Assembly (NCBI GenBank): GCA_948144175.1
Contig: CANXME010000853.1
Coordinates: forward strand, 248,001 to 312,000
Direction of reading: 5' to 3'
Length of the DNA stretch: 64,000 bases
Source of the DNA: Closterium sp. NIES-65
Taxonomy: Eukaryota; Streptophyta; Zygnematophyceae; Desmidiales; Closteriaceae
Shown: positions 8,546-60,813 of the stretch, piece after piece
Position numbering within the stretch: position 1 is the stretch's first letter
How the letters are laid out: the number at the start of each line of letters is the position of its first letter
Program-made: the position numbers and the translations under genes
Notes under the pieces: generated by a model
The model's input: the letters and a program-made list of their open reading frames with translations, nothing else
Database searches by the model: none
What the model was told of the DNA's origin: nothing

Positions 8546-8865
8546 GGAATTGGACGGATCCTTGAAAGTCTTTCAGCATTGAGGCTCACCAGAGGGATCA
8601 GAGCAGAGGGGTGAGAGCATAAGTATAGCAGGACAAGGAAGCAGTGAGGACAGCAGGCGGGTCCTTGTATGAAAGCAGTGGCCCCTTCAACTGAGGGCAC
8701 ACCGCCTTCTCGAGCAGGACAGCGTGAATTGGCTTTTGAGGCGCCACAGAAAGCATAGCGTGAATCGGCCATGCGAGTGATGTTTGAGAATTCTCAAATA
8801 CCGCGGTACTCCTTCCCTGGATAGGACGGCAGGGAAGGCAAGGGGGGCAGGTGACAGTGTGATGT

Positions 8866-10990: not shown

Positions 10991-11067
10991 GCATGATGGC
11001 AGAGGGAGGCATGATGGCAGTGGGAGGCATGATGGCAGTGGGGCGCCGACGCGCCTCCGTAAAGGCG

Positions 11068-11150
11068 GGGTCGGAGGAGACGCGAGGGTGGCGAGGAGAC
11101 GCGAGGGTGGCGAGGAGACGCGAGGGTGGCGAGGAGACGCGAGGGTGGGA
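11068..11150. repeat. 19-bp minisatellite GAGGAGACGCGAGGGTGGC
   Basis: Four tandem copies. The unit is alignable, at about 14 of 19 positions, with the 19-bp repeat at 13670-13745. Both arrays precede the same CACCTCACTC...ATTCGCAGCCTTCGCC segment. Confidence 0.88.
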
Positions 11151-11334
11151 AGGGGATGAGAGAGAGGGGAGGGAATGAGAGGGATGAAAGGGAATTAGAG
11201 CGTTGAGAACTGATTTTCCTGCACCTCACTCTTCATCGCTGCTCATTCGCAGCCTTCGCCAGGTCTTGTGAAGGTTTCCAGCTCGCCGCTCCCAAAAGCG
11301 GTTCCCAGCTCACGGATGGAAGGCAGGATGGCAG

Positions 11335-26100: not shown

Positions 26101-26141
26101 AACGAGATGTGGCAGATCCCTGTAGTCCCAATGCCTAAGAA

Positions 26142-29100
26142 GTGGCAGCAAGCGTCAGCACCAAAGGTGGAGCGGTTGGTAGCGGCGATTGCGCGGACGG
26201 TCGCGCTAAGGAGAAGGAGTCCAAGAAGTGCAATCTTGGAGGGACCAGCAAGCTTGGTGAACCTATGGAGAGAGGTGCAGCAGCCAAGGAGCAGCAAAAG
26301 GGTGAGGAGAACCCCGAGGCAGTAGCGGAGGAGGACTACGGAGAGAGTATGTGGGGCGCTATTGCGAGCGCGGCATTCTCCAATCCAACTTCGGCTACGG
26401 GGGAGTGTGATTGGCTCACCTTGCATCGGCGCATGGGGCATGTGGCCCTGCCCATCTTGCAGCAGCTAGTAAAGAATGAGATGGTTGCTGGCATACGTGT
26501 GAAGGGGGAGCCCAATGAGGTACTTGGCTGCCCGACGTGCATGCAAGCCAAGTTCACCCGTTTCCCATTTTCTAGTTCGGAGGCAACGGCTAAGGCACCA
26601 CTTGATGAGGTGGTGATGGACGTGGTGGGCCCCCTGAAGCTTGGAGCTGCTAGAGGTGAGTACTTCCTCACTATTGTGGACGTCTATACCCGTATGACTT
26701 GGGTGTACGTGCTGGCCAAGAAGAGCAACGTGGCTGAAACGTTGAAGGCGGATTGGTTCCCGATGGTGGAGCGGCAACAAGACCGTCTAGTCAAGTCAAT
26801 CCGCACCGATCGAGGGGGAGAGTTCCTGAGCAAGGAGTTTGGGTTGTGGCTGAAGAAGAATGGTATTCGGCACTCCCTCACCATGCCATACTCCCCTGCA
26901 ATGAACGGCATCGCCGAGCGAGCGAACCGCACAATCACGGAGGCGGCACGCAGGTTGCTCATTGAAGCCGGGCTACCCGACTATTTCTGGCCTGATGCGG
27001 TGCGGAGCGCGTGTGTGGCCAAGAACCGAGCCTTGACTCATGTGGGAGCAGACAAATGGGTGCCCTATGTGGAGTGGCTAGGAAGGAAACCAAAGGTGGA
27101 TATGCTTCGGGTGTTCGTGTGCATGTGCATGGCGCTCGTGCCTAAGCATCTTCGGCACAACAAGCTTGGTGCCAAGGCGGTGTGGGCCGTGCACTTGGGC
27201 ATGGCTCAAAACAGCAAGGTATGGCTTCTTTGGGACCCATTCACCAAGAAGTTCTTGGTGAGCAGGGACTGCAAGTTCATGGAGAACTTCATGTACAAAG
27301 ATTGGAAGGCGGAGAATGAGGCGAAGATAGGCGTGCGGTTTGGGGAGGTGAAGAGTTCCGGCTTGGAGCATGTGGAGCTGCCTTTGGAGCTGAGCAGCGG
27401 CAGCACAACCACGAGGCAATCCTCCCTTGTGAATGGGGGAGAGGAGGCCAATGATGCAGAGGAAGAAGAGGAGGAGGTGCAGCAAGTGAGCGAGCGTGCA
27501 CCGACACTCCCTTCCCGTACTACGAGTGCTCCACGGATTCGAGCCACACCGCAGCAACGCCAAGGCCTTCAAGTCCCTGCAGCTGAGGAGGAAGGAAGGG
27601 GGAAGAGGAGAGTTCAACCCCCTAATAGGCTGACCTATGATGCGCCGGGAAAGCAGGGCAAGACAGCCCTGGCCGGAGCGGAAATGATGGTCGCAGACGA
27701 CGAGGACAGTGACTACGAGGAGTGTGCCTTCGCGTTCTTCTCTCCGGTGGAGATGCCGGGAGAACCAGCAACTCTCAAGGAGGCTTTGGAGAGTAGTGAT
27801 GCTGAGGAGTGGAAGAAGGCCATGGAGAGTGAGCTGAAGAGCATCGAGGAGAATGACACGTTTGAATTGGTGGAGCTACTGGAGGGGCGTACGGCAATAA
27901 CGTCCAAGTGGCTCTTCAAAATCAAGTCGGATGCCGACGGCAAGATCGAGCGCTACAAGTCTAGGCTTGTAGCCAAGGGGTACCAGCAGAAGGAGAAGGT
28001 GGACTTCAAGGAGCTGTTTGCCCCTGTGGTGAAGCCGACGACGCTGCGAACCCTATTCGCGGGAGCCAATATCAAAGGATGGGTAGTAAAACAAATGGAC
28101 ATCGTAACGGCATTCCTTAACGGCATCCTTGAGGAGAAGATTTTTATGGCGCAGCCAGAGGGGTTTGATGATGGTAGTGGCAGAGTGTGGAAGCTAAAGA
28201 AGGCCCTCTATGGGCTGAAGCAGGCCCCTAGGCAATGGTACATGAAGCTGCGCGAAGTGTTGGAGGGGATCGGCTTCATTCCCTCAACAACCGATCACTC
28301 CTTGTTCATGCTTGGCGAGGGGGAGCAGAGGAGCTTCATGGTGGTTTATGTGGATGACATTCTTATATTCTCACCCTCCTCTGACCTAGTGAAGGAGGTG
28401 ATGCTGAAGCTGCATGACAAGTTCAAGTGCAAGTCCCTTGGTGACGTGAACTTCTACCTTGGGCTCCGCATCGAACGAGACGTGGAGAAGCGGAGCATGC
28501 GAGTGCACCAACGGAAGTACCTGGAGGCGTTGGCTGCCAACTTCGGCCAGAGTGAAGGTCATGTGGCTACTCCCTTTCCCTTTGGGCTCAAGTGTGTGAA
28601 GGGACCAGAGGAGGAGAGCGTTTGTGAAGAGGAGAGGCGCCGTTTTCACTCGTTGGTGGGCAGCCTCATGTATGCGGCGGTAAACACCCGACCGGACGTC
28701 GCGTTTGCTACCGGGCAGCTGGCTAGGGTTGTGCAATGCCCTAATGAGGAGCAGGTAGCAGCTGGAATGAGGGTGGCCAAGTATCTTGGCCAAACACCGA
28801 CTGTTGGGCTGCAATACTCGGCGGCGGCACAAAGGCGCCAAAAGGGCGCGGATGGTGTTGAACCCGGGCGTTTGTTCCTCAGCGCCTACTCGGATGCGTC
28901 ATATGCATCGGAACCAGAGGACATGACAAGTGTGGGAGGCTTCATATGCTGTGTTGGTGGAGGCCCAACTGCTTGGGAGAGCAAGAAGCAGGTTGGCCAA
29001 GCTTTGAGCTCGATGGAGTCCGAGTACATGGCACTCTTCCGTGCCGTACGGGAGATTGTGTGGCAGCGGCGTTTGTTGGCTGAATTGGGGGAGGAGCAGC

Positions 29101-29345
29101 AAGGACCTACCCCACTCTACTGTGATATCCAGGGTGCCATTGCTCTTGCTAAGAACCCTGTGTTGCATGGACTCACAAAGCACATGAGGGTGAAATGGCA
29201 TTGGACAAGGAGCATGGTGACCGCGGGTGAAGTTGAGTTGCGGTACGTGAAGACCACGGGGCAGCCGGCTGACATGATGACTAAGAAGCTCGTGGAGCAG
29301 CAGCATTGGAAGTGTTGCAAGCTGGCTGGGATGGCTCTGAACTGA
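26142..29345 (+). CDS. Element C integrase, RT and RNase H region (fossil)
   Basis: An open stretch of 1,067 codons. Pre-integrase LHRRMGHVALPIL; integrase VVMDVVGP, IRTDRGGEFLSKEF and MNGIAERANRT; RT RYKSRLVAKGYQQ, MDIVTAFLNGILEEK, LYGLKQAPRQW and YVDDILIFSPSSD; RNase H YSDASYAS, SSMESEYMAL and KHMRVKWHWTR. This is the best preserved retroelement coding sequence in the window. Confidence 0.88.
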   Translation: MAASVSTKGGAVGSGDCADGRAKEKESKKCNLGGTSKLGEPMERGAAAKEQQKGEENPEAVAEEDYGESMWGAIASAAFSNPTSATGECDWLTLHRRMGHVALPILQQLVKNEMVAGIRVKGEPNEVLGCPTCMQAKFTRFPFSSSEATAKAPLDEVVMDVVGPLKLGAARGEYFLTIVDVYTRMTWVYVLAKKSNVAETLKADWFPMVERQQDRLVKSIRTDRGGEFLSKEFGLWLKKNGIRHSLTMPYSPAMNGIAERANRTITEAARRLLIEAGLPDYFWPDAVRSACVAKNRALTHVGADKWVPYVEWLGRKPKVDMLRVFVCMCMALVPKHLRHNKLGAKAVWAVHLGMAQNSKVWLLWDPFTKKFLVSRDCKFMENFMYKDWKAENEAKIGVRFGEVKSSGLEHVELPLELSSGSTTTRQSSLVNGGEEANDAEEEEEEVQQVSERAPTLPSRTTSAPRIRATPQQRQGLQVPAAEEEGRGKRRVQPPNRLTYDAPGKQGKTALAGAEMMVADDEDSDYEECAFAFFSPVEMPGEPATLKEALESSDAEEWKKAMESELKSIEENDTFELVELLEGRTAITSKWLFKIKSDADGKIERYKSRLVAKGYQQKEKVDFKELFAPVVKPTTLRTLFAGANIKGWVVKQMDIVTAFLNGILEEKIFMAQPEGFDDGSGRVWKLKKALYGLKQAPRQWYMKLREVLEGIGFIPSTTDHSLFMLGEGEQRSFMVVYVDDILIFSPSSDLVKEVMLKLHDKFKCKSLGDVNFYLGLRIERDVEKRSMRVHQRKYLEALAANFGQSEGHVATPFPFGLKCVKGPEEESVCEEERRRFHSLVGSLMYAAVNTRPDVAFATGQLARVVQCPNEEQVAAGMRVAKYLGQTPTVGLQYSAAAQRRQKGADGVEPGRLFLSAYSDASYASEPEDMTSVGGFICCVGGGPTAWESKKQVGQALSSMESEYMALFRAVREIVWQRRLLAELGEEQQGPTPLYCDIQGAIALAKNPVLHGLTKHMRVKWHWTRSMVTAGEVELRYVKTTGQPADMMTKKLVEQQHWKCCKLAGMALN

Positions 29346-33611: not shown

Positions 33612-36600
33612 TTACTGCACATTGTCATATTCATAGACCTTCACAACCGAATTGAATGACACCTGCCTCTTCATCTTCCTAGACCGTTCCTCCTGTGCAC
33701 TACCACCCACACAACCGCCAGTCGCCATTACACCTCCATCCTCTTTGTCCATAACTCCTTTACTCTCACTACCCCTCTCCTCCTTCCTTGCTGCCTCCCT
33801 GAAACTCACACTCCCGACCACAAACCGCTCCTTCTCCCTCTCCCACTCCCTCTCCCTCTCCTCCTCCCTCTTCCTCTCCCATGCTTGCTCCCTCCTCTCC
33901 TCCCCTTCCGACTCTGTCCCTTCTGCACCCTGCAACTCTGATTGAAACACCTTCAAAAGGGGATGAGAAATCGAAACGGCTTTGCTCCCTCCTCTTTCCT
34001 CCCAGCTCAAGGACTGCTTCAGCCCACCCCTCGGGACCCCTCTCTTCTCCCCCACACCTTCCCCGTTCCCCCGGTCTAAACCACCGCAATTATCCCCGTG
34101 AGTGGCATCTCCTTTATAAGCAGGTGTCGAGAATTGATCCCCGTCCAGAGCCTTAGTATAAGCTGCCTCGTTGAAGGAAAGATGGTGTGCAGAAGACTTC
34201 AATGAGTGAACAGACATAGATGTCTGGTGCCTTTGGTCAGTGGAAATAGGGGTGAGTGTGGGTGGGAGTGTTAGTGTGTGGGTCAGTGTGGGGTTCAGTG
34301 TGAGTGAGTGTGAGTGGATGGGTGCAGAGGCAGTCCTGGATAGGGGAGCAGCAGAAAGCGGCGGCAACAACGCTCCTCTTCTCTCTCTTGCCTCCTCCCC
34401 TCCCCTATCTTCACCTTTTATCGCTTCCCGTTCCCTCCTAAACACCGCCTTCCTGCTTCCTCGTGCCTCTCCATCCTTCGTCCTCCCATGCTCCTCGCCT
34501 TGACCTTCCCCCTCGCTCCAATCCCCACTTGATTCCCTCCCTCGTCCCTGGTAATACCTCACCGTACCTGGACTTGAGCTTCGGGCCCATGATTCCAAGC
34601 TTCTTACCGGACCTAGCAGTGCGAACATCGAATGCTGGTGCTGCCGTTTCTGCGAGCTTGGCTCAGCACTAGCCTCGGAGGTAGCAGGTCCGGAATTAGG
34701 CTTGGCAGAGCGAACAGGCTTAGGTCTGGGTGTTAAATGGTCGCCCCCTTTGGAATCTGAAGACAGTAATGCCGTTGACAGCTTCGGAAGAGATAGGTTT
34801 GGTTTGGACCAAGAGGATCGTCCGAACCGGCGGTACCCGAAGCTGCTTCTAGAGCTGCCAGTCTCACTCGTGTATCCACCATCCCCCTCCCCCTGCTCCT
34901 CCTCCCCTCCACTTACCCTCCACAACCTTTCTCCTCCTCCCGAGCCCCTCTTTCCTCCTCTTAGTCCGCCCATTCTCCACCTTCCCTCCCTCCCGTCACT
35001 AGAAGCAATAGAGTCACCTCCATCCGCATTTCCATCGGCATCAACAACCATCGTAGTCAGATCTCCCATGCTACTCACCCTGCCAATGCTACTACTGCTG
35101 CTGCAGTGGCCGTGCAAGCTCCCCATGCTGCCAATGCTGCTGCGGTGGCCGTGGCTGTTTCTGGAAATCGTTCGAGGACTACCATCGGGGCTGGCACCCG
35201 GGCTGCTACCCGGGCTGCTGGCAGGGCTGGTACTGGGGCTCCTACCAGCTTCGGCTTGCATGCTTGACACCTCGCAAGCATCAATGCTAGCTGCTATGCT
35301 TGACGTGCTGACAGTACTTCCCATGCTCCTATGCCTTGCTCTCTCCCTCTCTGCCTTCTTCTCTCTCTCCCTCATCCTCTCCTTCTCCCTTTCCCTCTCC
35401 CTCTCCCTCTCTCTCTGCCTTTCTCTCTCTCGCTCCCCCTCCCTCTCCTGCTCACTACTACTCCCCAGTTCACTACTCTTATTGAAATTTCTCCTGCCCG
35501 AGTTTCCTCCATATAGAGTTATCTCGTTCCAGTTAAAAGGCTTGGAATGCAAGGCTCCATCCACATCACTAATACATGAGGACTCCCGCGTACCATAACC
35601 ACTAATACCGCTCCCAACCGCACTACCTTCCCCCAAGCTTCCAATCCTCCGAATTGCACACTCCCTCTCTTTCCCACTCACATCCAACTCCTCACTCCTC
35701 CACGCTCTCCCCATCCCCGAACCCTCTCCATTCCCTCTTGCTCCTAATCTCTCATCCACCCATGCTGGCAACTGTAGCACCTCACTCCGCACCTGCCCTC
35801 TTAGGTTCGGCGGGCTCAACCCATACCCAGAGCTGCTGTAGGTTCGGGGGATGCTGATGGTGGCAGAGGAAACGGTGGAGGTGGGGGAGGGAAGGGAGGA
35901 CGGGAGAGACGGGGTAGTTGGAAGGGAGATGCCCAATGAGATCTCTCCCACTCCCGTTCCGTCCTCTCCCATCCCTCTCATCTCTGCTTTTGGTGATTCC
36001 ATGCCCGTACCATGGCAAGCAGCGGCCGTGACCACAGAAGAGGTTGAAGCTACTGATGCTATAGACGATGCTGCTGTGACGGGCCGTGCTCCTAAACTCC
36101 TGCTGCTGCCCTGCATCCCACTACTGTCACCCAGCCTACAGTCACACGGGTCCATCCTTGCAGCAGAAGCATTACACTCCAAGGGGGCCCAAACCCTGCT
36201 GCATGCCCCACCAGCCTCTCCTCCACTCCCTAACCCTGAATCAACTGTTTCCATCTGTTGCCTTCCGTTGCCAATGCTGCATACACCCTCCTGCTCAGCC
36301 TTGGCTGCTGCTGCTGCTGCTGATCCTGCTGCTCCTCCCCCCCCTGTTGTCGCTGCTGCTTCGCCTACCCTTTCTGCGACCACGGCAGCAGCAGCGGCAG
36401 CGGCCTCCACCCCAGCAACAAGCCTGTGAGAGAACGCCAGAATCTCCCTCGTCTGCAATGCTACACACGCCCCACCACTTCCGCCCTGCTGTTCCCCGCC
36501 CCTCACTGACCCAGCAATAGCACCAGTGGCAACTGCGCCTGCAGTATCCCACAAAAAAGCGAGGACGGGTGGCAGGGAAAGCAGAGACGCGTCATCATCG

Positions 36601-39600
36601 AGAGAGGAGACGAGGGCCTGATCCCAGGCGTCACTCAGGCTGGTGCGCGGCGATGCGAGATCGAGTGTGTCTGCTATCGAGGCGTCTCCAAACGAGGATG
36701 AGGAGAGGGATGGCCAGTTGTTGGTGCCCTGTGTCCCCCTCCTCCTCCTGCCACCACCAATACCACCACCTCCCACGGAGGGACTTTCAGCTGTGAGGGG
36801 TCTTGGCGTTACACTCACTTCCCCTGATCTTATTGCCCCGCCTGCTGCTGCTGCTGCTGCTGCTGTTGCTCTTGCTGCTGCAGTTGCCGGCGCTGCTGCC
36901 GAAGCTGCTCTTGTTGCTCTTGGTCCTGCTGCTAGAGCTGTTGCTGCAGCTGTCCCACCTGCTCCACCTTCACTCCCTTCACGCTCACCCATTCGCCCCC
37001 CCATAGGCCCGTACCTCCAACCTCCCCACCGCCGCTGCACTGCCCGAACCGCCCCGTCAGGCTTGGAAGATCCCCGAACCTCGCCATCAGGCTTGGAGGA
37101 TTCCCGAACCTGCGTGTCAGGTTCTGGAGGAGGTCGGTCCGAGCCTCCTCCCGTGCCCCAGAGCGCGCCGAGCCTGGCCAATGCTGTCCTGTGATCGTTA
37201 AGTAAGGCGCGGTTCAAGCTGCTGTGTCTAAAGAGAGGGAAGCCTCTGCTGTGCTCTGTGGCTTGTGCCTTGTTACCTGCTAGTGTTACACGGTTACCGT
37301 TAGTCACCTCTGCTACAGTGGCAATGAGATTTTCATCAGGGGCGGAAGTGTCAGCGAACGCAGCAGTGGCAAGAGATGTTACTGTGTTATCAGTGGTAAC
37401 GCTGTTACGCGCTGCTAGAGCGTCGGGTATCCACACCCCTCCAACAGTCATGTTGCCGAAATCCCATGACCCCGACTTGCGACGAGCCTTCATCCTCCAC
37501 CCACCATCACCAGCAGCCGCAAATGCAGTGCTGCTGCCAAATGTCGGTCCATGTGACGTGTCATATGGTGCCTCTGGCACGCTTGGTGATTGGTCCGAGA
37601 GGCCAGGTGAGTCGAATGCAGAACAGCACCGACGAATAGAACCTGCCGTTGCTACCGCCACCACCCCTGCTGCTGGTGCCCCTGCTGCTGGTGCCACAGC
37701 TGCTGCTGTCCCCCCAGCTGCTGATTTCAACGCACCAGTGCTTGTTTGGACTGCACCAGACTGCATTCCACCGCACTCTACCGACCTGTACGACCTGCTA
37801 CCGTGCCCCTCCTCCTCTTCCTCCTGATTTCCCTCCATTTCCCTACCCCAATTACTCCCCTCTTCCCTCTCCTCCCGCTCCACCACTCCAAACCGCACTA
37901 CCATGGGGCCTGACTTGCAAGTCCTCAGCTCCCCCCCTACCATAGTAGGCCCTTCGGACGATCCTCCGTAAGAGCTGACCCGAGAATCCTTATAAGAGCC
38001 GCCAAACCGCAAGCCGTTTCCAACACCACTCCCACCAGCATCACCATTTGCAGCAGCAGCAGTGGCGGCATGCAAAAACGAGCGGGTGCTGCTGCCAGAA
38101 AACGAGCCTGCTCTGCTTGTCTCCTCCCACGCCCTGTCGAACCTCCTTTCAGCCCTCGAGGTGGTGGGATCGCTGAACGGAACAAACGGGAGGTTAAGTG
38201 GAGGAGCAGCAGCAGCACCACCACCACTCAAACTCCCACTCCCACCTCCCCCCTGCCAGCTTCCCAAGCTCCCCACACTGAACGCCCTTCCCCCCCTCTC
38301 ACCCTCCCAGCTGCCACTCTTCCGATCTCCTTTACTATCTGCCTCGTTATAATACTGATCAGTGTATTTCCGCCATTTTTCCTGGAGAACACGCGCCGAG
38401 AGCACGAGGTTGGCGGGGCTCCAGGGGGAGGGCGGCGGGCTGTCGTCCGTGAGAAGCTGCCAGGAAGCATGAGCCTGCGCAATGATTGCCAGCGCCACGT
38501 CAGCAGCGCCGGCCCTTTGGTTGAGCCCGAACTCGTTCTCCTCATCGTCTGTAGCGGAGGAGAGAGGAAAGGGGCCGGGGGGTGGGGGAAATCAAGGCAC
38601 CTGGAGATTCAATAAGCTTTTTAGAAGAAAGATTCATTACACCTAATGCTGCTATTGAATTAGGTACGCTACATCAGTCTTATCCCAAAGATTTCAAAGT
38701 AGGTTACACACGCAATATAAGTTGATAACGGAAAACAACGGAAATAACTCTATTGCCGTTCTAACAGAGATAACGGAAATAACTTTATTTCCATTTATTG
38801 TAATGAAATGTAAGATAATGGTCGTGCCAGAAAAGAAAGGCCTAAGAAATGGGGTGACACTTAGCAATCACTAAACGAGAAAAGGAAGCACTATTCACTT
38901 TCTGTATAGGCCTAAATAATCGGAAAGCCTGCTAGTAATGGATCCTAGTGACTGAATGATTGTAGCGATATCCAAAGGTCGGTAAGTGCGCATATCCGCC
39001 AATTCTACTTCAATGCGCTCTTGTGACAAGGGGGTGGTTGATTTTCCCCTCTTTTCAACAGGAAACCAGGTTAAATCTCGCCCTGGCTTGCTAAGATTTA
39101 CTCGTCCAATCGGCAAGCAATACTCGTAATCGGGTGCCTAAAGTACATAAGTGGATAGATTCAGAGAAGAAGGGAGAGCGATCCATGCAATAAAGGGGGA
39201 AGAGGTTCCCTAGTTGAGCCAGCACGTTCCCCCCTTGTAGCGGCGAGACAACGTGCGGGGCAGGGGAAAAACAAGTGAGGAAAAGGGAGGGGACGCGGCG
39301 GTGGGCGAGTGAGCAAGCGACAGGGGGAGAGAGGGGACAGGAATCCAGTAACATAAAACCCAGATACGGCGGATATCTATTTATACGGCCTCACGTCGTT
39401 GACTTACCTGGATCAACGCAGTCGCAGAATCGCAGCCATTCGCGAATGTCGTCCAGCAGGCCCGGGAACAGCGCATGCACGTCTGCCACGTCACTGATCC
39501 GATCAGCCACGTCATCCTCACCGACACCGCCACCTCGACTACTGCTACCCGGCGCCGCGGGAATGGCAAGAAGCTTCCAGGAAAGGCGGCTCTTCTGCTG

Positions 39601-40515
39601 TACGACCGCGAACGCGCCGACTACTCTCACCTGACACACATCCCCTGTCCGCAAATCGCGGGACGGCAGCATACTATTAGACAGACTAACCGACGAGGCG
39701 AACCCGGCTCGCGACGCGTCATTAAGATCCAGCAGCAAGGCGTCCATCGGACCGCCTTGGTACGCGAGGCCGCCATAGTCGGGGTTGGGCTGCGCGGGGT
39801 CCGCGTACGTCTGCGGGAGAAAACCTAGGGTGAACCGCGTCGCGTTCTCCGCGAAATGCGCCGGCTTCGAGTAACCGTTCGTGGAGGGAAACTGGGAAAT
39901 TCGAAGCGGGGTGAACTCCTCGTTCTGAGCTACCTCGTACTTAATCCACGAGCCTCTAGGCGTCGCGCAGACGAAATTAAGCAGCCCGTCGCGGCTGTAA
40001 AGCGGCACGTGGTGCCACCAGGAAATCAGCCTCAAATCGCGGTCAACCGCCAGCTGGCGCCACGTCAGCGTGCCGACGTGGCCGATCTCGATCGACGTGG
40101 ACTGGAGGATTTTGTCGTGTATCGGAGTTGGCGGGGTGGGAGTGAGAGGGGAATCATGCAAGCCGCGACCGCCGCTTCCGGTGGGAGTCGCGTCGCTTCC
40201 TAAAATGTGGTCCCAAGCGGAAGATACCGAATCGCCATATCCCGACGAGTTAAAGTCGGCAATGCTTGTCGTTACGGTGGTGGTGGTGCTAGGAGTAGGA
40301 ATCACTGAGCTTTCTCTTACTAAGGACGTCTCTAAACTAGACCGCGCAGCTCCGCTACCACTACCAGTAGCACCGCCTGGCTTGGACTCTATCGTCGAGC
40401 CGCTGTCCACGTCAGCATTCCTTATCTCCCATAGCCCATGGCTGGGAAACGAATCGTCCTCCTCGTCCCCGCAGCTAATCTGCAGCTTCCGCGTTCGCTT
40501 CATTGTACCCGCCAT
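33612..40515 (-). CDS. Pseudo-pyrophosphatase with giant disordered tail (two exons)
   Basis: Exon 1 is 40515-39408 and exon 2 is 38548-33612, with one intron of 859 nt (CAG|GTAAGT donor; CTCCGCTACAG acceptor after a pyrimidine tract). Phase agrees (1 + 2) and the product is 2,014 residues. Residues about 145-415 match family I soluble pyrophosphatase of the plant plastid PPA6 type: HHVPLYSRDGLLNFVCATPR, NEEFTPLRI, GFLPQTYADP, GDVCQVRVVGAFAV, SWKLLAI, HALFPGLLDDIREWLR. Across the splice, NEFGLNQRAGAADVALAII and HASWQLL match the family's C-terminal helix. The metal-binding aspartates are largely gone: GDNDPxDV reads QGGPMDA, and the second acidic motif (IDEGELDWK in PPA6) reads VQQKSRLSWK. 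Hydrolysis is therefore unlikely. The remaining 1,600 residues are Ser/Gly/Ala-rich with an Arg/Glu-repeat segment, and end in RKMKRQVSFNSVVKVYEYD. No clear transit peptide is seen. The start is the first ATG of the long frame. The function of the fusion is unknown. Confidence 0.85.
38549..39407 (-). other. Intron of the pyrophosphatase-fold gene
   Basis: 859 nt, GT-AG, more AT-rich than the exons in part. It holds an ATAACGGAAATAACT direct repeat near 38730-38790 and an open stretch of about 80 codons listed separately. The exons on both sides continue one protein fold, which supports the intron. Confidence 0.85.
38892..39140 (-). pseudogene. Open stretch inside the intron, unlike host codon use
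   Basis: About 80 codons reading APDYEYCLPIGRVNLSKPGR at the start and ITSRLSDYLGLYRK at the end, then a stop. Third positions are often A or T, unlike the GC-rich exons around it. This suggests inserted organellar or mobile-element DNA. The family was not recognised. It may be a remnant, or chance. Confidence 0.25.
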
Positions 40516-45300: not shown

Positions 45301-47669
45301 CCAGCACCCCCCGCATCCCCCTCCACCCCCTCTTCCCCTCCCCCTCCCCCCCCACCTCCCTCCGCACCCACACTCCTCTGGCCAATCATAGTGCACCCCC
45401 ATTCCAAGGCCTCCAATGTGCACGTTCTCGTGCTCCCATTGGTGGCGCCCTGCCATGTGGCAGCCTATGAGAGGCTGTGCTGGCAGCGCAACTGCGGGGG
45501 AGGGGCGGGGTTGGCGCATGGGGGAGGGGGAGGGGGAGGGGGAGAAAGAGGGGGGACAGCAGAGGGAGGGATGGTTGGTTCTGGGGGCGGTGGTACTGGT
45601 GCAAGTGGTGCCAGTGCATTCACGCTGTCTGCTCTGCTTGCTGACCTACCTGCTGTGACAGCGTGAGTGAGTCATTCGATTGCAACTTGCAAGTCTCTGT
45701 GCTGCTTGCTTGCAGGTTACCCTTCCATTCCACCTTACAGTGCAAAACCTTTGTTGTCTTGCATGCCTTCTTTCTCGACTCCTCGCCCTCCCTAGCCCTC
45801 TCCCACCCCCAGAACCATATCCCTTGCTCTGTAGACCATCGAGTCCCTCCTCTCTGCTGATTCTACCGCCACCCCTACCGTGCCTTCCTCCTCTGCTCTC
45901 AACGCGTCTTCTCACCCTTGCTGCCTCCCCCTTCACTCCCGCTCTCCCTTCCCTCAGGGCCATCTTGCTTGCTCAGTGCATCGAGTCCCTCATCTCAACA
46001 GACTCATCTGCCACTCCCACCGTGCCCCCTCGCACCTCCCCCCTCCTCTCCGCCCCCTCCGCCCCCTCCCCCACCCTCCCCTCTATCTCCCTCTCTGGAG
46101 GGGGAGGAGGCGGAGGAGGAGGGATGGGAGGGGTGGGTGTTGGTGTGAAGGCTGGTGCTTTAGGCACCAGCACCATTGGCAGCAGTACTAGCACTGCCGC
46201 TGCTGCTGCTGCCGCTGCTGCCGCTGCTTCTGGAGGGGAAATGGGGAGTGGAGGAGCGGGAGGAGGAAAGGGAGGGGCAGCAGCAGGAGGGAGCGGCTTA
46301 GGGTTTGGGTTGCTGGGGGCGATAGGGGCCAGTATGGGAATGTCCCGAGCCAAGACCGCCCAAACCAGCCAGCTTGGTTCGGCGCCAGGCATGGCCGGAG
46401 GTTCGGGAGGAGGGGATGTGGGGAGGCAGGGTGGTGGGGGAGGAGGTGGGGTGATGGTGCAGCAGCTGAAAGCGGCTGAGTTGGAGGGAATCAGGCTTCT
46501 CATCTCAACGTACCTCCCCTTTGGTAAGACATGCGCTTTCTGCTGGTTCTGAATATTGAACTAATGCCATTGAAGTGAGGGTTTGGGAAGTGGAAGGGAT
46601 GGTTTGGGTGGGGGGAGGGGTAGAGCTGCGGCTGAATTAGTGATGGGGAGCTATTCAGAGCAATTCTCCTTGTAAATCAGACCCCATTATCCTCCCTTTA
46701 TCCACCCCCACTATTCCTAAAACATGGCCTTGCTTGCTTGCAGGTCGACCCATTGACTTCCCCACCCCTGCCACCATCACCACCCTCCGCACCCAACCTG
46801 CGGCCTACTCCCAGGACCTCTCACCCTACCTGCAACCGCCTTCCCCCCCCTCCGCCTCTCTCCTTTCGAGCAAAACCACCAACCAACCACACCCGAAGCA
46901 GCAGCAGCAGCAGCAGCAGGCAGGAAGAGCAGATGGAGCAGAGGCGGCACTTAAAGGCCTCGGCGGAACTTTAGGCGTGTCAGTAGACTCTCTAAGAGAC
47001 ACTTTTAGGCAGCCGGTGGGGAAACCAGTGCTTTACACCGGAAAACAGAGGGTATCCGTAGCAGTTGTAGAAGAAGTGAGTGTAGCTCTGTATGACAGGG
47101 AGGGGGAGGTGGCAGATGTGGTGAGTGTAACCGGTAGGGTTACCACACGATGGGAGGTGGAGGGTCTGCCAGATGTCACGCTCTCATTGGACGTGCCAGA
47201 AGACGCGTGTGTGGAGTCCCTTGTTGTGCATCCATGCGCTCAGGTGATGCCTTTTGCTGGTTCTCACGTCAGGTGAATTTTCAGGTGAAAATTCATGTAC
47301 ATTCGCAGGTAGAAATATCCGTGTTTTTTTTTTTTTGGGCGTGTTCAACTTCTCCCAACAATCGCTGCCACTTCCCTTGTTTGAACCTTTTTAAGAGCTC
47401 TTTAACTGGCACACTGTCTTCTTCTGCCTGCCGCCAGGGCCTTCAATCCCTTGCTCTCTCCCTCCTCCGCTCTCCCCTTTTCTCCCCTCCCTTTCCTCAT
47501 TGTCCTCTGATTCTACCTCTCACAGCTCTCCCATCAGCACACAGTCTCATTCAGCCCGCCTCTGGGGGCATTCGACCTGGTCAACTACCACTGCTGCCTG
47601 CCCACCACCCCGGAGCAATTGCAACAGAAACTGCAACAGCAACAACAACAGCAGCAGCAGCAACAGCAT

Positions 47670-47744
<75 letters not shown>

Positions 47745-50700
47745 GCACAGATGCAGCAGCAACGGGTTCCTCCCTCCCCCACCACCCCCTCCGCCCCTCC
47801 CTCCACCCCCTCCTTCCTCTCCTCCTCCTTCTTCTCCCCCAAACCCCCAACTGCCCCCACCTCTCTCGCCCGCCTTCTAGCCTCCATGCGAACCCCTCCC
47901 GTCGTCGGCTTTTACCAGAACCAATTCGTTTCTCCCACCGAGTCCCAGTTCTTACTTAAGCTCCGGATTATGGATGGGTACAAGCCGCCCTGTAACATGG
48001 AGCAATGCACCCTGCACATGCCCTTCCCACGGCGCCGCATTCTGACGGTCTCTGCTGCGCCCCCGTCTTTGGGGGTAGTTACCCACACCGAACACTTAAT
48101 TGAGTGGCGGATCTTTGCACGGGGATACTCGGGAAAGACGCTGGAAGTTTCCTTTTCCGGGTCGGTGTTTTTCCATCCGACAGGGGAAGGGGGAGAAGGG
48201 GAGAAGGAGGGGGAGAGGAAGGGGGTTGCGGACGAAGGGGTGGAGGAGGAGGATGAGGGAGTGGGGGTGGAGGAGGGAGGGGTTGTGCGCGGTGTGAGGG
48301 GGTCTGGTTGGGATGACCCGTTTTGTCGAGATGCGTTTGATTATGCCAAGGTGCGTTCTATCATCATGTTCCATGCTCTGTTGGTGGTGGTATGCTGCTA
48401 TGTTACTTGTTGCTTCAATGATGTGACATCATACTTCTTGATGTGGCATAGTAATATAATGAGGCATCGTCAATGTTGTATGCGGAGGAATTCGGCATGC
48501 TATCATGAAGTTGCATGCTACCAGGTTATGCATGTCAGGAAAGCTAGGGAGTAGTATGATATGATTTGATATGGTAAGGTAAGGTATGTTATGTTATGTT
48601 ATGGTATGATTTGATATGATTTAGTATGATATGATATGATATGATATGATATGATATGATATGATATGATATGATATGATATGATATGATCAGTGTTTGA
48701 GAGTGGCAGAGGTAGGTGTTAGTGACATAGGAGCAGTAACAAGTGTGATGCATTAGATTGCATGGCTTGATGGTGCTTATTACACATATCTCACGCCCAT
48801 TCCCCACCCCACCCCCCACCCGCACTACCACTCCCCACCTCCGATTTTTACAAGTTGAAGTTTGTAGATGAGATGGGGTTCAATGCGGTAGATGGGATGG
48901 GTTACAATGTGTACATTTGAAATTCAACTTTCGCTTTGCCAGATGTGCCTGGAAAATCTGAGGTCATATCCCCGCTTGCCTGGACCACGGAGTTGCATTC
49001 GACTTCCGCAAAATGCTCACCAAGAAAATCCCCATCTAATTCGTGTTTTCTTTTCTCGGGCAGCCTATTTTGTTTTCCGATTGCTTATAGCGTATTTGCT
49101 TGCGCCGTGTAGTGTGTAAAAGCCAGCGTACATCCACTAAAGGCGAAGTGTTTTAAGCATATTTGGCAATTTAGACCGCCACGCCATACCACTGCACACC
49201 CACATTGCCAACCATCTCATTTCCACCCCAGCCATGCATCTACCCCAGCCATGCATCGACCCCAGCCATGCATCGACCCCAGCCATGCATCTACCCCAGC
49301 CATGCATCTACCCCAGCCATGCATCTACCCCAGCCATGCATCTACCCCAGCCATGCATCGACCCCAGCCATGCATCTACCCCAGCCATGCATCTACCCCA
49401 GCCATGCATCGACCCCAGCCATGCATCTACCCCAGCCATGCATGGACCCCAGCCATGCATGGACCCCAGCCATGCATGGACCCCAGCCATGCATGGACCC
49501 CAGCCATGCATGGACCCCAGCCATGCATGGACCCCAGCCATGCATGGACCCCAGCCATGCATGGACCCCAGCCATGCATGGACCCCAGCCATGCATGGAC
49601 CCCAGCCATGCATGGACCCCAGCCATGCATGGACCCCAGCCATGCATGGACCCCAGCCATGCATGGACCCCAGCCATGCATGGACCTGTCAGATGAAATG
49701 CCAATTCACGAGTTGCCCAGACAACCCTGTCGTGCTCTATTTCTTTGACGCCTTACCATTACCATTCCTCCCCTTACCTGTCATGCCTTCTCCCTTGATG
49801 CCTCACCAGGTGGCCTTCAAGATGCACGGAGGAACAGTCTCAGGCGTTGCAGTGAGCGCAAGCAAGGTGTGTGACTTGCACTGGTGTGTGTTGACTTGCA
49901 CTGGTGTGTGTTGACTTGCACTGGTGTGTGTTGACTTGCACTGGTGTGTGTTGACTTGCACTGGTGTGTGTTGACTTGCACTGGTGTGTGTTGACTTGCA
50001 CTGGTGTGTGTTGACTTGCACTGGTGTGTGTTGACTTGCACTGGTGTGTGTTGACTTGCACTGGTGTGTGTTGACTTGCACTGGTGTGTGTTGACTTGCA
50101 CTGGTGTGTGTTGACTTGCACTGGTGTGTGTTGACTTGCACTGGTGTGTGTTGACTTGCACTGGTGTGTGTTGACTTGCACTGGTGTGTGTTGACTTGCA
50201 CTGATGTGTGAGCTGACTTGCACTGGTGTGTGTTGACTTGCACTGATGTGTGAGTTGACTTGCACTGGTGTGTGTTGACTTGCACTGATGTGTGAGCTGA
50301 CTTGCACTGGTGTGTGTTGACTTGCACTGATGTGTGAGCTGACTTGCACTGGTGTGTGTTGACTTGCACTGGTGTGTGTTGACTTGCACTGGTGTGTGTT
50401 GACTTGCACTGGTGTGTGTTGACTTGCACTGGTGTGTGTTGACTTGCACTGGTGTGTGTTGACTTGCACTGGTGTGTGTTGACTTGCACTGGTGTGTTGA
50501 CTTGCACTGGTGTGTGTTGACTTGCACTGATGTGTGAGCTGACTTGCACTGGTGTGTGTTGACTTGCACTGATGTGTGAGTTGACTTGCACTGGTGTGTG
50601 TTGACTTGCACTGATGTGTGAGCTGACTTGCACTGGTGTGTGTTGACTTGCACTGATGTGTGAGCTGACTTGCACTGGTGTGTGTTGACTTGCACTGATG

Positions 50701-53700
50701 TGTGAGTTGACTTGCACTGGTGTGTGTTGACTTGCACTGATGTGTGAGTTGACTTGCACTGGTGTGTGTTGACTTGCACTGGTCTGTGTTGACTTGCACT
50801 GGTGTGTGTTGACTTGCACTGGTGTGTGTTGACTTGCACTGGTGTGTGTTGACTTGCACTGATGTGTCTGTTGACTTGCACTGGTGTGTGTTGACTTGCA
50901 CTGATGTGTGTGTTGACTTGCACTGGTGTGTGTTGACTTGCACTGATGTGTGTGTTGACTTGCACTGGTGTGTGTTGACTTGCACTGGTGTGTGTTGACT
51001 TGCACTGGTGTGTGTTGACTTGCACTGGTGTGTGTTGACTTGCACTGATGTGTGAGTTGACTTGCACTGGTGTGTGTTGACTTGCACTGATGTGTGAGTT
51101 GACTTGCACTGGTGTGTGTTGACTTGCACTGATGTGTGTTGACTTGCACTGGTGTGTGTTGACTTGCACTGGTGCGTGTTGACTTGCACTGGTGTGTGTT
51201 AACTTGCACTGGTGTGTGTGTTGACTTGCACTGGTGTGTGTGTTGACTTGCACTGGTGTGTGTGTTGACTTGCACTGATGTGTGTGTTGACTTGCACTGA
51301 TATGTGTGTTGACTTGCACTCATGTGTGTGTTGACTTGCACTGATATGTGTGTTGACTTGCACTGATGTGTGTGTTGACTTGAACTGATGTGTGTGTTGA
51401 CTTGCACTGGTGTTTGTTGACTTGCACTGGTGTGTGTTGACTTGCACTGGTGCGTGTTGACTTGCACTGGTGTGTGTTGACTTGCACTGGTGCGTGTTGA
51501 CTTGCACTGGTGCGTGTTGACTTGCGCTGGTGTGTGCTGACTTGCACTGATGTGTGTGTTGACTTGCACTGGTGTGTGAGTTGACTTGCGCTGGTGTGTG
51601 TTGACTTGCACTGATGTGTGTGTTGACTTGCACTGGTGTGTGTTGACTTGCACTGATGTGTGTGTTGACTTGCACTGGTGTGTCTTGACTTGCACTGATG
51701 TGTGTGTTGACTTGCACTGGTGTGTGTGTTGACTTGCACTGATGTGTGAGTTGACTTGCACTGGTGTGTGAGTTGACTTGCACTGGTGTGTGTTGACTTG
51801 CACTGATGCGTGAGTTGACTTGCACTGGTGTGTGTTGACTTGCACTGATGTGTGTTGACTTGCACTTATGTGTGAGTTGACTTGCACTGGTATGTGTTGA
51901 CTTGCACTGGTGTGTGTTGACTTGCACTGGTGTGTGTTGACTTGCACTGGTTTGTGTGTTGGCTTGCACTGATGTGTGAGTTGACTTGCACTGGTGTGTG
52001 AGTTGACTTGCACTGGTGTGTGTTGACTTGCACTGATGTGTGAGTTGACTTGCACTGGTGTGTGTTGACTTGCACTGGTGTGTGTTGACTTGCACTGGTG
52101 TGTGTGTGTGCACCAGAGGGTGGGGGCGGACTGTGGGAAACCAAGCTCCTGGAGTATGAAGGTGAGCCAACGGGCCTCCTGAGCAGCCATGGTGCCAGCG
52201 TAGAGCTCTGCCTCACAGGAGGAGAGGGAGACTGCAGACGACCTGGTCGAGCGCCGACTGACAATTCCGCTCCCAAGGGTGAAGCAGTACCCCTGAGAGG
52301 AGCGTCGGTCGGTCTGGTCATCAGCCCAGGAGGAGTCAGTGTAACCTTCCAGGCGAGGAGGGAAGAGCCCACCGAGTGTGAGAACGTGAGACTTGGTGCC
52401 CTGAAGATAGCGCAGCACCCGTTTCGCCGCCTTCCAGTGAAGATCAGTGAAGCGTCCAGGGGCCACGTAGCGAGAGAGGACACTGACAAGATAGGCCAAG
52501 TCCGGTCGGGTGCACATCATGGCGTACATGAGGGACCCAACAAGCTCCGGGTATGGCTCAGAGCAGGCCTCTGGTGTGGGTACAGCTGGGGCTGTGAGGA
52601 GGTGTTGCAGCGGCAGCGGGGTGGCAACAGGTGTGCACAGCTCCATCTCGAACCGATTGAGCACATTGTCGATGTAGAACTCCTGGGAGAGTGAGATGGT
52701 GCGAGTCTGGCGATCACGAGTGATCTCCATCCCCAGGTAGTGCTTGAGGTCACCGAGGTCTTTCATCTGGAGGGTCTTGCTCAGGGCTGTCTGGACAGAG
52801 GTCATCTGGGCTGAGTCCTTGGCAACGAGGATGAAATCATCCACGAGACCAGGATGTAGAATGGCTCAGAATGACGGCGGATGAAGAGAGTCGGGTCAGC
52901 AGTGGAAGGGTGGAAGTCCAGGGAGAGGAGGACTTCATTCACCTTGTTGTGCCATTCGCGAGGGGCTTGCTTAAGGCCGTAGACGGGGCGATTCAGCTTC
53001 CAGACAGTGTTGGGAGGGAATTCTCCTGGGAACCCTTCTGGTCTGTCCATGAACACTGTCTCCTCGAGACGTTCTTGTAGGAAGGCGGATGAGGCATCCA
53101 TGGATTTGATCTCAAAGTCTTCTCGAGCTACGACATCCATGAGCGTACGAATGGTGGGAGGTTTGGATGTGGGGGAGAAGGTTAGGAAGAAGTCGCGGTA
53201 CTGCTGCTGGGTGAAGCCCTTGGCTACGTAACACGCTTTGAACACTAGGGCCTCGTCTGGGAGCTGTGCTACACGGAACAACCACTTGCCCCCGACGATG
53301 TTGACTCCTGGAGGTGGAGTCTCGTCGTCGAAGGAGTGGTTGCGGGTTAATGCTGCAATCTCCGCTTCCATGGCAGCACGCCATTCGGTAACATGAGGGC
53401 TTGAGAGAGCCTCTTGGACGGTGAGAGGGATAGGGATGGTCGGGTTCTCCGCGAAGTTGAGGGAGGGTGAGTCAGTGATGTCGGGGAAGATGTGCGAGAG
53501 CTGAGGAATGACTGCATGAAGATCACACAGCTCCTCATGCCTGTCTTCCAGAAGGGTAGAGGGCACATCCCCCCAGCAGGAGGAGGCGGTGTGATCGCCG
53601 TGTATCGAAGAACCAGCGCGAGTGGAAGAGCAGCGCGATGCGAACGAGTGCCATGAGCCACCGGAGAGGAGGGTGGGGCAGGCGGTGTCGGAGGGGTTGA

Positions 53701-56700
53701 CTTAGGAGGCTTGGGCGGGGGAATGGGCCGCCGGTGGTACGTGATCAGCTCGGGTGACAATGGGAGAGCGGGTTCCTCTGTGGTGGGGGGAACCGAGGGA
53801 GGAGGTGGGGCCGGAGGGTGGGACCGCCAATGGTAGGTGATAGGTGCGCTCGGAGGTGGCTGCACAGTCGGCGGAGTGGGAAGTGAGGGGGATGGAGGAG
53901 CAGCTGCCGAAGACACCGGTGAGGGCGGGTCAGAGACCTCAGAGGGGGACGGTGCGGTGGCAGGAGGGGTAGAAGGTGAAGGGGCCGGAATAGGCGGGAG
54001 GTCAGGGGGCGCATCAAGGTCTGCCCACACGAGGGAGGGTGGATCAGGGAGAGGGTCCCATCCCGAAGTGGAGTAGAATGGGCGGGTCTCATCAAAGACA
54101 ACGGTTCGCGGCTCCGGACCAGCTGTTGAGTGGAGGGATTGAGGAAGAGGTAGTCAGGCGAGTCGGCGTTGTGCCCGAGGTAGATGCACGTATGGGTCTT
54201 GGGACCGAGCTTGCCGCCGTGCTGCCGTCGAGCCTGAGGGTTGAGGAGGACATAGGCGGTGCACCCCCAAACGCGAAGAGAGCGAGCAGTGGGCGTTTTC
54301 CCAAGCCAGAGTGTGGTTGGAGTGGTGTTGGAAAGATGCGGGTGGGGGTAAAGGTTGTAGAGGAGGGCGGCGTGGTAGAGAGCGTACCCCCAGAGAGAGT
54401 GCGGAGCGTTGGAGTGGCTGAGGAGGCACCGAGTGATCTGCACCAGGGTGTGGTTGCGGCTCTCAGCTATGCCGTTCTGCTGTGGACTGTCAGGGAGGGT
54501 GAATTTTTGCTGGATGCCTTCTGAGGAGCAGAAGGCTTTGAGCTTGTCGTTGCAAAACTCACCACCACCATCTGAGTGGAGGCGCTTGACTTTGCGGTCA
54601 AAGGTGGTCTGTGCCTGTTTAACCCACGCCATGAGGACCTCTGGAACCGCAGCCTTAGTGTGGAAGAGGTGAACAGAGACGTAGCGAGAGTGGTCATCGA
54701 CGATAACAAGGAAGTAGCGATAACCACCTCGTGCGGGAGCAGGGGCAGGGGCCCAGACGTCCAGGTGTACCAGGTCCAGTGGTCCTGCTGCGACAGAGGG
54801 TGAGGCCGGGTGGGGCTGTTGACGCAGTTTGCTCTTGGTGCAGTCAAGGCACGTGGGAGCGGGGGAGTCTGGTGGTGGAGGAAGTGAGGCTGGCAGGCCG
54901 AGTAGAAGTTTCTTGGAGGCCATGTCAGCAAGTGTGCGGAAGTTTGGGTGCCCGAGCCGATGGTGGTAGAGTATGGTCGGGTTGGAGAAACTGCGGCACG
55001 AGCATGGTGAGGTAGTCGCCGCTGTTTGGGTGGTTGACACCTGTGGGATGGGTACTTGCAGCGTGTAAAGGCCGCTGCTGTTGAGGGTGAAACGAGTCAA
55101 GACCTTGTTGGTGAGTGGGTCGAGGATATCACCATAGTTCTCGTTCTCCTAGAAGATGGTGCATAGCCCAGCTTCCTGAATTTCCGTTTGGGCCACGAGA
55201 TTGTGGCGGAGTGAAGGCATGCACATTCCAGTGACAGTGCCGGAAGGGAAGGCGGGGCACGGGACTGTGGATGAACCCTTGGCATTAGTGGTGGAGCTTG
55301 AGTCAGCTCCTAGGAGAGGGATGGGTGTTGCGTAGGGTTTGAAGGAGAGTGTCTCCATGAGTACAGTGTGCGTGGCGCCGCTGTCGAGTGTGAACTCTAT
55401 GTATTGTGGTGCTTGTGATGAGCCGAGGTACTGGGAGGAAGCTTCATTAATCATGGCAGTGCCAGGAAACAACAGGTTGATACGCACATCAGTAGGAGCA
55501 CTATCACTAGCACTAGCCGAAGTGGGGTCCGGGACCTCAACTAGGTTGGCCTTACGAGGACGCATCCAGTTTGGCGGCTTCTTGTCCACTCCGTGAATGA
55601 CATACCATTCGTCGTCTTTCTTCTTGAAGCACGTAGCAAGGGGGTGGTTAGTGCCACCACACACTTGTCCCTTGCGGTTGCCATACTTGACTACATAGGT
55701 GCACGGAGGGAACCGGTTGCGCTGGAAGGGCGCCGAGGCGAGGGCCGATGCGACACTTGCTTGTGGCATGGGAGCGCGGATGGCGTAAGCCTTGGCTTGA
55801 GCCGTGGAATCTTTCTCAGCAGAGAGGAGTGCGGATGAGACCTTAGCAAATGTGAGGTCTTCCGCTGAGAGCGTGAGGAGCATCTTCGTCGTTACTTCAT
55901 ATGCCGAGGTGAGACCAACTAGAAGGGCGGCTGCAAGGGCTTGTTTGGGGAAGACTAAGCCCAGCTCCTTCAGTTCGCCATGAATAGTCTGCACCTTGGC
56001 GATGTAGTCAGCCATTCCCGAGCAATCCTCAAGGCGGACCTGGAACATGCTGGGGATGAGGATGGCAACCCCGACCGCCGTTTTGTTCATGAACCGATCC
56101 TGGAGGTACTTCCAGATGGCGTTGGAGGTAGGGTAGTTGTGGAACGTGTTGACTAGTTCGGGAGGGGTGGAGGCAATGAAGACGCTGATGATAGCAGCAT
56201 CTGCATTCTCCCATTTCCAGTACTTCTCAACAGCTTCCTCGTACGCCCTCATGTCAGTATCACTAGCGGATTCGGTCGGCTCAAGGGGGGAAGGGGGCTG
56301 TTTTCCCTTGCCACGGTTGAGGAGAACGTCCTTGAGGTCCAATCCATGCACGTCACGACTCAGGAGGTGCTTGTCAACCCCGTAGCTCCATGCCTTGAAG
56401 TTGGAGCTAGAGCCATCGGCTTCAAGGCGGAGCGGGGTGATGGGGTTGGCCATGGTGGACGAGGAGAAGGCCATGATGAAGGCCCCTTAATGTCTCGCAC
56501 GGAGCGCCGCTCTTAAGTCACGAGCGGCGCTCAGCGCGGCGATTCCGAAATTCAACGGGTTCGAATAGGAGAAATCGTCAATGTCGGCCGCGTCGGAATG
56601 CCGTGTAGAGAGTTTTTTCAGGCCGTCAAAATTAGGTTGAATCGGCCGATTTCCGTAGTACTAACTCTAATCCCACACCCCCCCCCCACACACCACCCTC

Positions 56701-59502: not shown

Positions 59503-60711
59503 CTACTGTACATCCATCCCTTCAAAAGCAATAGCATCCAGGGTCCCATTCCCCACTATCTCGTGCACTAGCCCGCTAAACCTCTTATCCCCAGACTGGT
59601 GGAGAACGCACGGATACGCCTTGGTCACCTTCGAATACACCTTGATCTCCACACCAGTCCCTTGCACCTCATACTCTTCTGACTTCCGCCCTCCCAGCTG
59701 GTCTATAAGAACATTGTAGTGGTCCAGCTTGATGAACGGCGGCGGTGTTGCCTGCCTGGCCTCTTCCAGACCTGCAGGCGTGATGTTTTGAGGAATCAAG
59801 ACTTGCGCCGGTTCAGGAAGAGAGCAGAAGTACCGCAGTGTGCCGGGCAGAGGAGCAGCAGAGGAGGTTAAAGAAGAATCAGAATCACCAGACGAATCAC
59901 CAAAGTCTTTGGTGGATGGTTTGGTACCTCCGTGGCTGTCTGTTACTGGTTCGGGATACGGCGTGCGTGGGAGGGAGTTGAATAGGAATGGCTGGGCCAG
60001 GTATACAGATATGAATTGCCGCTGATCTTCCATACAGTCACTTGTGTACGTTGCATCCATCATCTCGCCTAAAGCCCACGCGTATCCAACATAGAACCCT
60101 GCATTGACGAATAGATTCGGAAAAGGGTACCTCGGCTTTGGAGGGTACAAAGGGATGACGTCACCACTTGGGTATGAAAACAGCTCGGCCCCAAACACGA
60201 TAGGAGCGTTGAGAGACAGAAACGCTTTGAGTAACGAATCTGGTCCGCATAGCTGCCTGTTTGGCAGCAGCAAGACGTCATCAGCATCCGTAATAATCAC
60301 AATTCGGTCTCGTGGCAATGTCCTTAGGTACTCGCGATAGTATCTCACCCGACCACCTAGTCTCTGCCAGGTCTCTTTCAAACCAAGAAATGCAAGCTGA
60401 ATTTCGTTCATCTCACAGAACTTAGCTAAGCGCTGAACGCCTTTCCCACACCGGGTGGAAAGAGTGAGCCATTCGATGCTGCAGTTGGAGTAGGTGAAAG
60501 CTGACGTTGGCTTTAAGTCGCGAGGGTCTACTGTAACGTCATATGTGACGCGGCAGCCATCCCTTCCCCCATTTTCTGCCGCTCCCTCGCTGCTACTACT
60601 GCTTGTAAGGTCACGCTCAGACCCTGGATCGGAGATGATCCCGCCTGATAGTCCTCCATTGCTAGCCACCACTTTCCCCCCGCTGATACCGCCTCGGTTG
60701 TTGGAGCTCAT
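59503..60711 (-). CDS. PLOD/procollagen-type glycosyltransferase-like protein
   Basis: An open frame of 402 residues. Residues about 55-245 resemble the glycosyltransferase domain of lysyl hydroxylase/procollagen glucosyltransferases: LGLKETWQRLGGRVRYYREY, RDRIVIITDADDVLLL with the DxD metal site at 142-145, PIVFGAELFSYP, FPNLFVNAGFYVGYAW, and EDQRQFISVYL. A C-terminal PCVLHQSGDKR at 368-378 is the family's histidine motif. Residues 255-290 are a low-complexity insertion. The first 50 residues are Gly/Ser-rich. No membrane anchor lies in this frame, so a short upstream exon is likely (see 60814-60993). Expected role: sugar transfer in the ER or Golgi. Hydroxylysine as substrate is not implied in a plant. 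Confidence 0.8.
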   Translation of the reverse strand: MSSNNRGGISGGKVVASNGGLSGGIISDPGSERDLTSSSSSEGAAENGGRDGCRVTYDVTVDPRDLKPTSAFTYSNCSIEWLTLSTRCGKGVQRLAKFCEMNEIQLAFLGLKETWQRLGGRVRYYREYLRTLPRDRIVIITDADDVLLLPNRQLCGPDSLLKAFLSLNAPIVFGAELFSYPSGDVIPLYPPKPRYPFPNLFVNAGFYVGYAWALGEMMDATYTSDCMEDQRQFISVYLAQPFLFNSLPRTPYPEPVTDSHGGTKPSTKDFGDSSGDSDSSLTSSAAPLPGTLRYFCSLPEPAQVLIPQNITPAGLEEARQATPPPFIKLDHYNVLIDQLGGRKSEEYEVQGTGVEIKVYSKVTKAYPCVLHQSGDKRFSGLVHEIVGNGTLDAIAFEGMDVQ

Positions 60712-60813
60712 CCCAAAAATCGTGGGCGCCTGTCAGTATGTTTGAGAAAGTCACCTTCCAAGAGAGGTGGGTTGGGTGTATGTTGTTGGTATGTCAAGTG
60801 TCCCTGCAGTTAC

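Follow-up and report, generated by a model that had tools for sequence, protein, structure and literature searches.

Two reading frames on the − strand of the window, i.e., the whole 64,000-nucleotide stretch of Closterium sp. NIES-65 DNA analyzed here, raise the question of whether a pyrophosphatase-like domain and a long low-complexity sequence belong to one protein and, if so, whether that protein can still be an enzyme. Soluble family I pyrophosphatases are near-universal housekeeping enzymes. The sequence shows a fold whose core is preserved but which has lost most of its ligands for metal and substrate, and a frame that leads on without a break into a low-complexity tail of ~1,600 residues. 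We regard the product as a probable pseudoenzyme of the family I pyrophosphatases; its long tail may or may not have a use.

Gene Structure and Splice Joint

The gene consists of two exons on the − strand. Exon 1 (40515–39408) contains the start codon, a 131-residue N-terminal stretch, and most of the pyrophosphatase-like domain, an assignment based on the splice joint, the reading frame, and PF00719. Its open frame begins at 40557, and the first ATG, at 40515, lies in a context with A at −3 and G at +4. Exon 2 (38548–33612) encodes the end of the domain, the tail, and the stop codon (33612–33614). The intervening intron (38549–39407, − strand) is 859 bp long, of the GT-AG type and in phase 1, with a GC content of 46% versus 60% for exon 1. 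The donor site is CCAG|GTAAGT, cut after 39408, and the acceptor is a pyrimidine tract ending in CTACAG. When exons 1 and 2 are spliced in phase, the joined frame comprises 2,014 residues with no internal stop. The joint 39408/38548 thus bears out the earlier note, in which two − strand frames had been connected by a clean intron of agreeing phase. If the intron were retained, translation would continue through 39391–39407 (− strand), adding GKSTT before a stop, and would yield a 374-residue protein without the last helix of the domain.

The fold was also said to continue across the intron, and three comparisons agree with this. In tblastn searches, exon 1 was matched by a provisional sequence of Arabidopsis PPA6 with an E-value of 3.5e-23 and by the yeast enzyme with an E-value of 2.5e-16. 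The start of exon 2 was matched by the same two queries, PPA6 at 38537–38451 (E = 0.020) and yeast at 38540–38451 (E = 0.029); these matches span the first ~29–30 residues of the exon and follow those in exon 1 in the correct order. In addition, 14,202 segments of 36 residues, taken in steps of 9 residues from the six reading frames of the whole window, were scored as a sum against the C-terminal ends of yeast pyrophosphatase and the provisional Arabidopsis PPA6. The two best segments (scores of 108 and 106) overlap each other at the start of exon 2, and the best score elsewhere is 68. Finally, PF00719 matches exon 1 alone with 33.0 bits and the spliced sequence of both exons with 40.2 bits. 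The predicted intron is well supported because the last helix of the domain lies in exon 2, and the alternative of two separate genes was rejected since the pyrophosphatase fold crosses the intron.

Identity and Fold of the Domain

Residues ~132–402 form a eukaryote-type family I pyrophosphatase domain, as indicated by PF00719 with an E-value of 3.7e-10 (cut-off, 23.5 bits). The part encoded by exon 1 (residues 132–369; 39409–40122, − strand) was assigned by sequence matches and by an AlphaFold2 model compared with known structures using Foldseek, and the part encoded by exon 2, the C-terminal helix EFGL..ALAII..SWQLL (38451–38548, − strand), was assigned by tblastn and by the segment scan. 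A sequence search of the PDB with E-values up to 1 returned 26 distinct sequences, 25 of which are pyrophosphatases, with yeast pyrophosphatase at an E-value of 2.7e-16; the remaining one, general stress protein 13 (E = 0.71), was taken as a chance match. Pairwise comparison gave 105 bits and 29% identity for the provisional PPA6 sequence and 86 bits and 25–30% identity for yeast. A closer relationship to PPA6 than to yeast, among these two enzymes, is therefore supported and agrees with the PPA6-type label given in the earlier note. This similarity does not contradict the streptophyte origin suggested there. The N-terminal stretch contains an acidic run, GDEEDD (residues 16–21), which we take to be unlike a typical plastid transit peptide.

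The checks suggested in the earlier note included a family I profile search and a structure prediction. The former gave the PF00719 match above the cut-off. The AlphaFold2 model, which omits the exon 2 part of the domain, was of low confidence, with a pTM of 0.64 and a mean pLDDT of 61 when 13 viral relatives were included in the alignment, and a pLDDT of 32 without relatives. When this low-confidence model was compared with the PDB using Foldseek, yeast pyrophosphatase ranked first, with an E-value of 1.9e-8, a probability of 1.00, and a query TM-score of 0.48, and the query-normalized TM-scores were 0.42–0.51 over the best 50 of 407 rows. This fold match is not independent of homology, as the alignment behind the model held the 13 viral pyrophosphatases. 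The viral set, which serves as a yardstick only, originated from a tblastn search of the provisional PPA6 sequence against phages that led to three bacterial-type enzyme records and from these to 1 + 14 viral loci. From 15 loci (L003–L017), L004 and L017 were dropped as the same proteins as L003 and L016, respectively, and L001 and L002 are outside the alignment. Several of the 13 enzymes are near-identical, and they do not represent 13 independent cases.

Active-Site Residues

For the comparison with the yeast enzyme, we used a provisional list of 18 active-site positions (yeast numbering). Only K56, E58, D120, and K154 are kept, and the other 14 positions are changed. E48 is replaced by Ala, D147 by Gln, D152 by Ser, Y192 by Cys, and K193 by Asp in the alignment to yeast; Y192 and K193 are still not kept in an alternative alignment register. 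The loop with D71, K73, R78, and Y89 is placed differently among three alignments, and those entries are uncertain. Of ten active-site positions outside the DXDXXD signature (E48, K56, E58, R78, Y93, D147, D152, K154, Y192, and K193), three are kept (K56, E58, and K154).

The viral enzymes give a similar picture. The 13 enzymes share 27 invariant columns, 26 of which are occupied in the present protein. It agrees with them in 11: seven are G (two), P (two), F, T, and A, and the remaining four are K56, E58, D120, and K154, all of which presumably face the pocket. Every invariant column corresponding to E48, D115, D117, D147, D152, Y192, or K193 is replaced. Structural positions such as PQT, FPG, and SW are kept in the domain.

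The main losses are seen in comparison with yeast and again with the 13 viral enzymes. QQKSRLSWK (39574–39600, − strand) occupies the place of DEGExDWK, with both Asp lost and the Lys kept. QGGPMD (39742–39759, − strand) replaces DXDXXD, which is described as the family I signature (PMC8386120), and two of its three Asp residues have become Gln and Gly. D115, D117, D120, D152, Y93, and K56 are named among the yeast active-site positions in PMC11210485, where D117 is described as activating the attacking water together with two metal ions. The equivalent of D117 is Gly in the present domain. In mouse PPA1, the single substitution Asp117Ala, in a numbering not matched to yeast, is reported to abolish detectable activity (PMC3633968). 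Loss of hydrolysis would be expected because most ligands are replaced, D117 is Gly, and the mouse Asp117Ala enzyme is inactive; a loss of catalysis is accordingly well supported as a prediction. The replacement of most metal-binding aspartates, including QGGPMDA and SRLSWK, had been recognized in the earlier note, which had omitted that K56, E58, D120, and K154 are kept.

The Tail: Reading Frame, Composition, and Motifs

The tail (residues 421–2014; 33615–38396, − strand) is composed of 14% G, 14% S, 12% A, 9% R, and 8% E, and it is probably disordered, as judged from this composition alone. It runs in one open frame, in agreement with the length of about 1,600 residues given earlier. An uninterrupted stretch of 1,659 codons contains exon 2, whereas the longest obtained from 200 dinucleotide shuffles was 357, and the other five frames over exon 2 contain 21–91 stops each. 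A Pfam search of exon 2 with E-values up to 1 gave no match. A coding-phase score was also applied, for which exon 1, the glycosyltransferase frame, and one adaptor-subunit frame of the window served as training set. The true frame ranked first in 8 of the 16 tail blocks, one of these being a virtual tie, where equal frames would give one in six (2.7). The last two blocks favor the true frame over the next by 7.3 and 9.7 log units.

The region is also rich in repeats: 12 overlapping tandem-repeat rows were found in 33–41.5 kb, and tandem repeats are generally abundant in the window. Within the tail arrays, codon position 3 did not vary clearly more than the other positions in eight readings, which come from partly overlapping arrays with small counts; position 3 was slightly highest in some and position 1 in others. 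Third-position variation was therefore rejected as proof of constraint, and the tandem-array pattern is better explained by repeat growth than by constraint on the protein.

Several short motifs were considered. Near the end of the tail, RQVSF (residues 1997–2001; 33654–33668, − strand) is a candidate PP1 docking motif of the RVxF type; with the following NSVVKVYEYD, it makes up the C-terminal end of the protein save four residues. The plain RVxF-type pattern occurs once in the tail against 0.87 expected, and the extended pattern once against 0.10 expected, being present in ~9% of the 5,000 shuffles that preserved composition. Measured in this way, the RVxF-like motif lacks significance. KSGSW is present in two copies (38307–38321 and 37464–37478, − strand), a count reached in none of 2,000 shuffles, and AW[DE] occurs three times (7 of 2,000 shuffles); both were picked by eye among 17 patterns after the sequence had been viewed, and these figures are uncorrected for that number. 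Enrichment was unconvincing for [ST]P (19 versus 14.1 expected; 190 of 2,000 shuffles), RxxS (27 versus 27.7; 1,193 of 2,000), and SnRK-like sites (8 versus 5.8; 449 of 2,000).

Possible Function and Alternative Explanations

There is about an even chance, in our estimate, that the gene encodes a pseudoenzyme whose ancestor was a PPA6-like family I pyrophosphatase of the eukaryote type, in which the dead domain serves as a binding or dimerizing module holding a flexible, partner-recruiting tail. The domain would no longer hydrolyze pyrophosphate and would act as a folded unit that binds or dimerizes and carries the long chain. Most eukaryotic family I members are homodimers (PMC8386120). Partners would be recruited by short linear motifs on the chain, perhaps including the PP1-docking-like site at its end. 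Several results stand against this reading: the RVxF-like motif is within chance, the tail arrays lack a clear position 3 excess, the true frame leads in half of the tail blocks, one of them a virtual tie, and the AlphaFold2 model has low confidence and lacks the exon 2 part. Of the earlier proposal of a pseudoenzyme used as a scaffold, the first half is probable, given the loss of most catalytic residues; the second is less so, as the tail arrays give no clear indication that selection acts on the protein, and a scaffold role of the tail is possible. A more elaborate version, which we regard as very doubtful, would make the domain the dimerizing anchor for a very large, disordered scaffold that targets a phosphatase. 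The domain would associate either with a second copy or with a working enzyme of the PPA6 type, or would sense pyrophosphate or phosphate without hydrolysis, with PP1 held at the C terminus and other partners at KSGSW and AW[DE].

The same results bear on four other explanations. That the domain is the sole working part and that the tail, tolerated without a specific role, arose as simple repeats expanded in a genome full of them is rather unlikely, although the position 3 counts (eight readings, small numbers), the 12 repeat rows, and the large tandem arrays elsewhere in the window all speak for it; a tail with no stop where the other frames have 21–91, and the recurrence of the eye-picked KSGSW and AW[DE] beyond shuffles, do not. 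The tail could instead be absent from the mature mRNA of the domain, the protein being cut short just past the domain by an additional intron or by premature polyadenylation. The eight tail blocks in which the coding-phase score favors another frame would fit this, but the frame leads straight from the last helix of the domain and is open to 33612, and the last two blocks are clearly best in the true frame, so that such an ending seems quite unlikely. Neutral drift in a decaying pseudogene of a PPA6-like enzyme would also account for the lost active-site residues. Yet 2,014 codons remain without a stop although the domain has fallen to 25–30% identity to working enzymes, structural positions such as PQT, FPG, and SW persist, and the splice sites are canonical; we consider decay very unlikely. 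Altered chemistry or residual activity, relying on K56, E58, D120, and K154, is highly improbable: these four kept positions, which presumably face the pocket, are its basis, but the majority of the Asp ligands have been lost, and Gly stands in place of the water-activating D117. If the domain of the preferred pseudoenzyme is inactive and maintained, the family I pyrophosphatase fold would have been reused for binding.

Comparison with Known Pyrophosphatases

The closest likeness of the two sequences compared pairwise is to the plastid soluble enzyme PPA6 of Arabidopsis, with which the domain shares its fold. In PPA6, both DXDXXD and DEGELDWK are intact and a long tail is not known, whereas most ligands are lost here and ~1,600 residues follow the domain. 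Yeast inorganic pyrophosphatase (PDB 1e6a and others) has the same eukaryote-type family I domain but differs at 14 of the 18 active-site positions. The trypanosomatid acidocalcisomal pyrophosphatase (PDB 5cuu and 5c5v), found by both sequence and fold matches, likewise carries extra sequence besides its family I domain. There, however, the additional part precedes the domain, the match starting at residue 187 of 414 in 5cuu, in contrast to the C-terminal extension described here, and it is an active enzyme. Family II pyrophosphatases have a DHH fold unrelated to family I, and those with CBS domains are active and nucleotide-regulated. The CBS-containing enzymes are described as a further case of a pyrophosphatase joined to extra sequence (PMC11210485).

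Among the matches listed in the open-licence literature, there was no natural inactive family I pyrophosphatase, which is not proof of absence. The inactive PPA1 described previously is an engineered mammalian mutant (PMC3633968, PMC6760234). Another match to "inactive pyrophosphatase" concerned an unrelated inositol-pyrophosphate enzyme.

Relatives were sought in collections of prokaryotes, viruses, and plasmids, where empty scans say nothing about algae. In viral contigs, no relative was found among 21 pattern matches with the domain as query, 225 with PPA6 and yeast, 57 with a fragment of both PPA6 and yeast, or 31 with the C-terminal 210 residues. In genome contigs, there was none among 24 pattern matches with the domain and yeast or 156 with PPA6 and yeast. 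True relatives may be missed in three of these scans (225, 24, and 156 matches) because their patterns came from stretches other than DXDXXD and PQTWEDP. The same combination of domain and tail was not found in these collections. Within the 64-kb window, no second pyrophosphatase copy was seen, tblastn giving, besides the gene itself, only E-values of 0.88 or more.

Neighboring Genes and Repeats

Frames with similarity to two other genes lie in the window. An adaptor-complex medium-subunit-like gene (46644–48551, + strand) occupies two frames (PF00928, E-values of 2.8e-8 and 9.4e-8); a long Q-rich run is in frame before the second half of its domain and may lie in an intron. A PLOD-type glycosyltransferase domain is encoded at 59503–60732 on the − strand (PF25342, E = 3.9e-20).

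Retrotransposon frames are also present. The frame at 26139–29345 (+ strand) contains gag-pre-integrase, integrase core, and RVT_2 reverse transcriptase domains, and that at 53745–55148 (− strand) contains gag-pre-integrase and integrase core domains. Judged by eye, frames at 55149–56486 (− strand) and 62894–63985 (+ strand) resemble further retrotransposon pieces, and one at 49803–52865 (− strand) reads like a copia-type reverse transcriptase/RNase H, running into a long HQCKSTHTSASQHTPVQVN-like tandem array. A similar array is present at 57425–58453, and both are open in more than one frame. Two large tandem arrays at 8687–11232 (− strand), SFSRVPYRSLVCRI-like and FPHLSLRSHTCRCVPTPVVA-like, are open in several frames.
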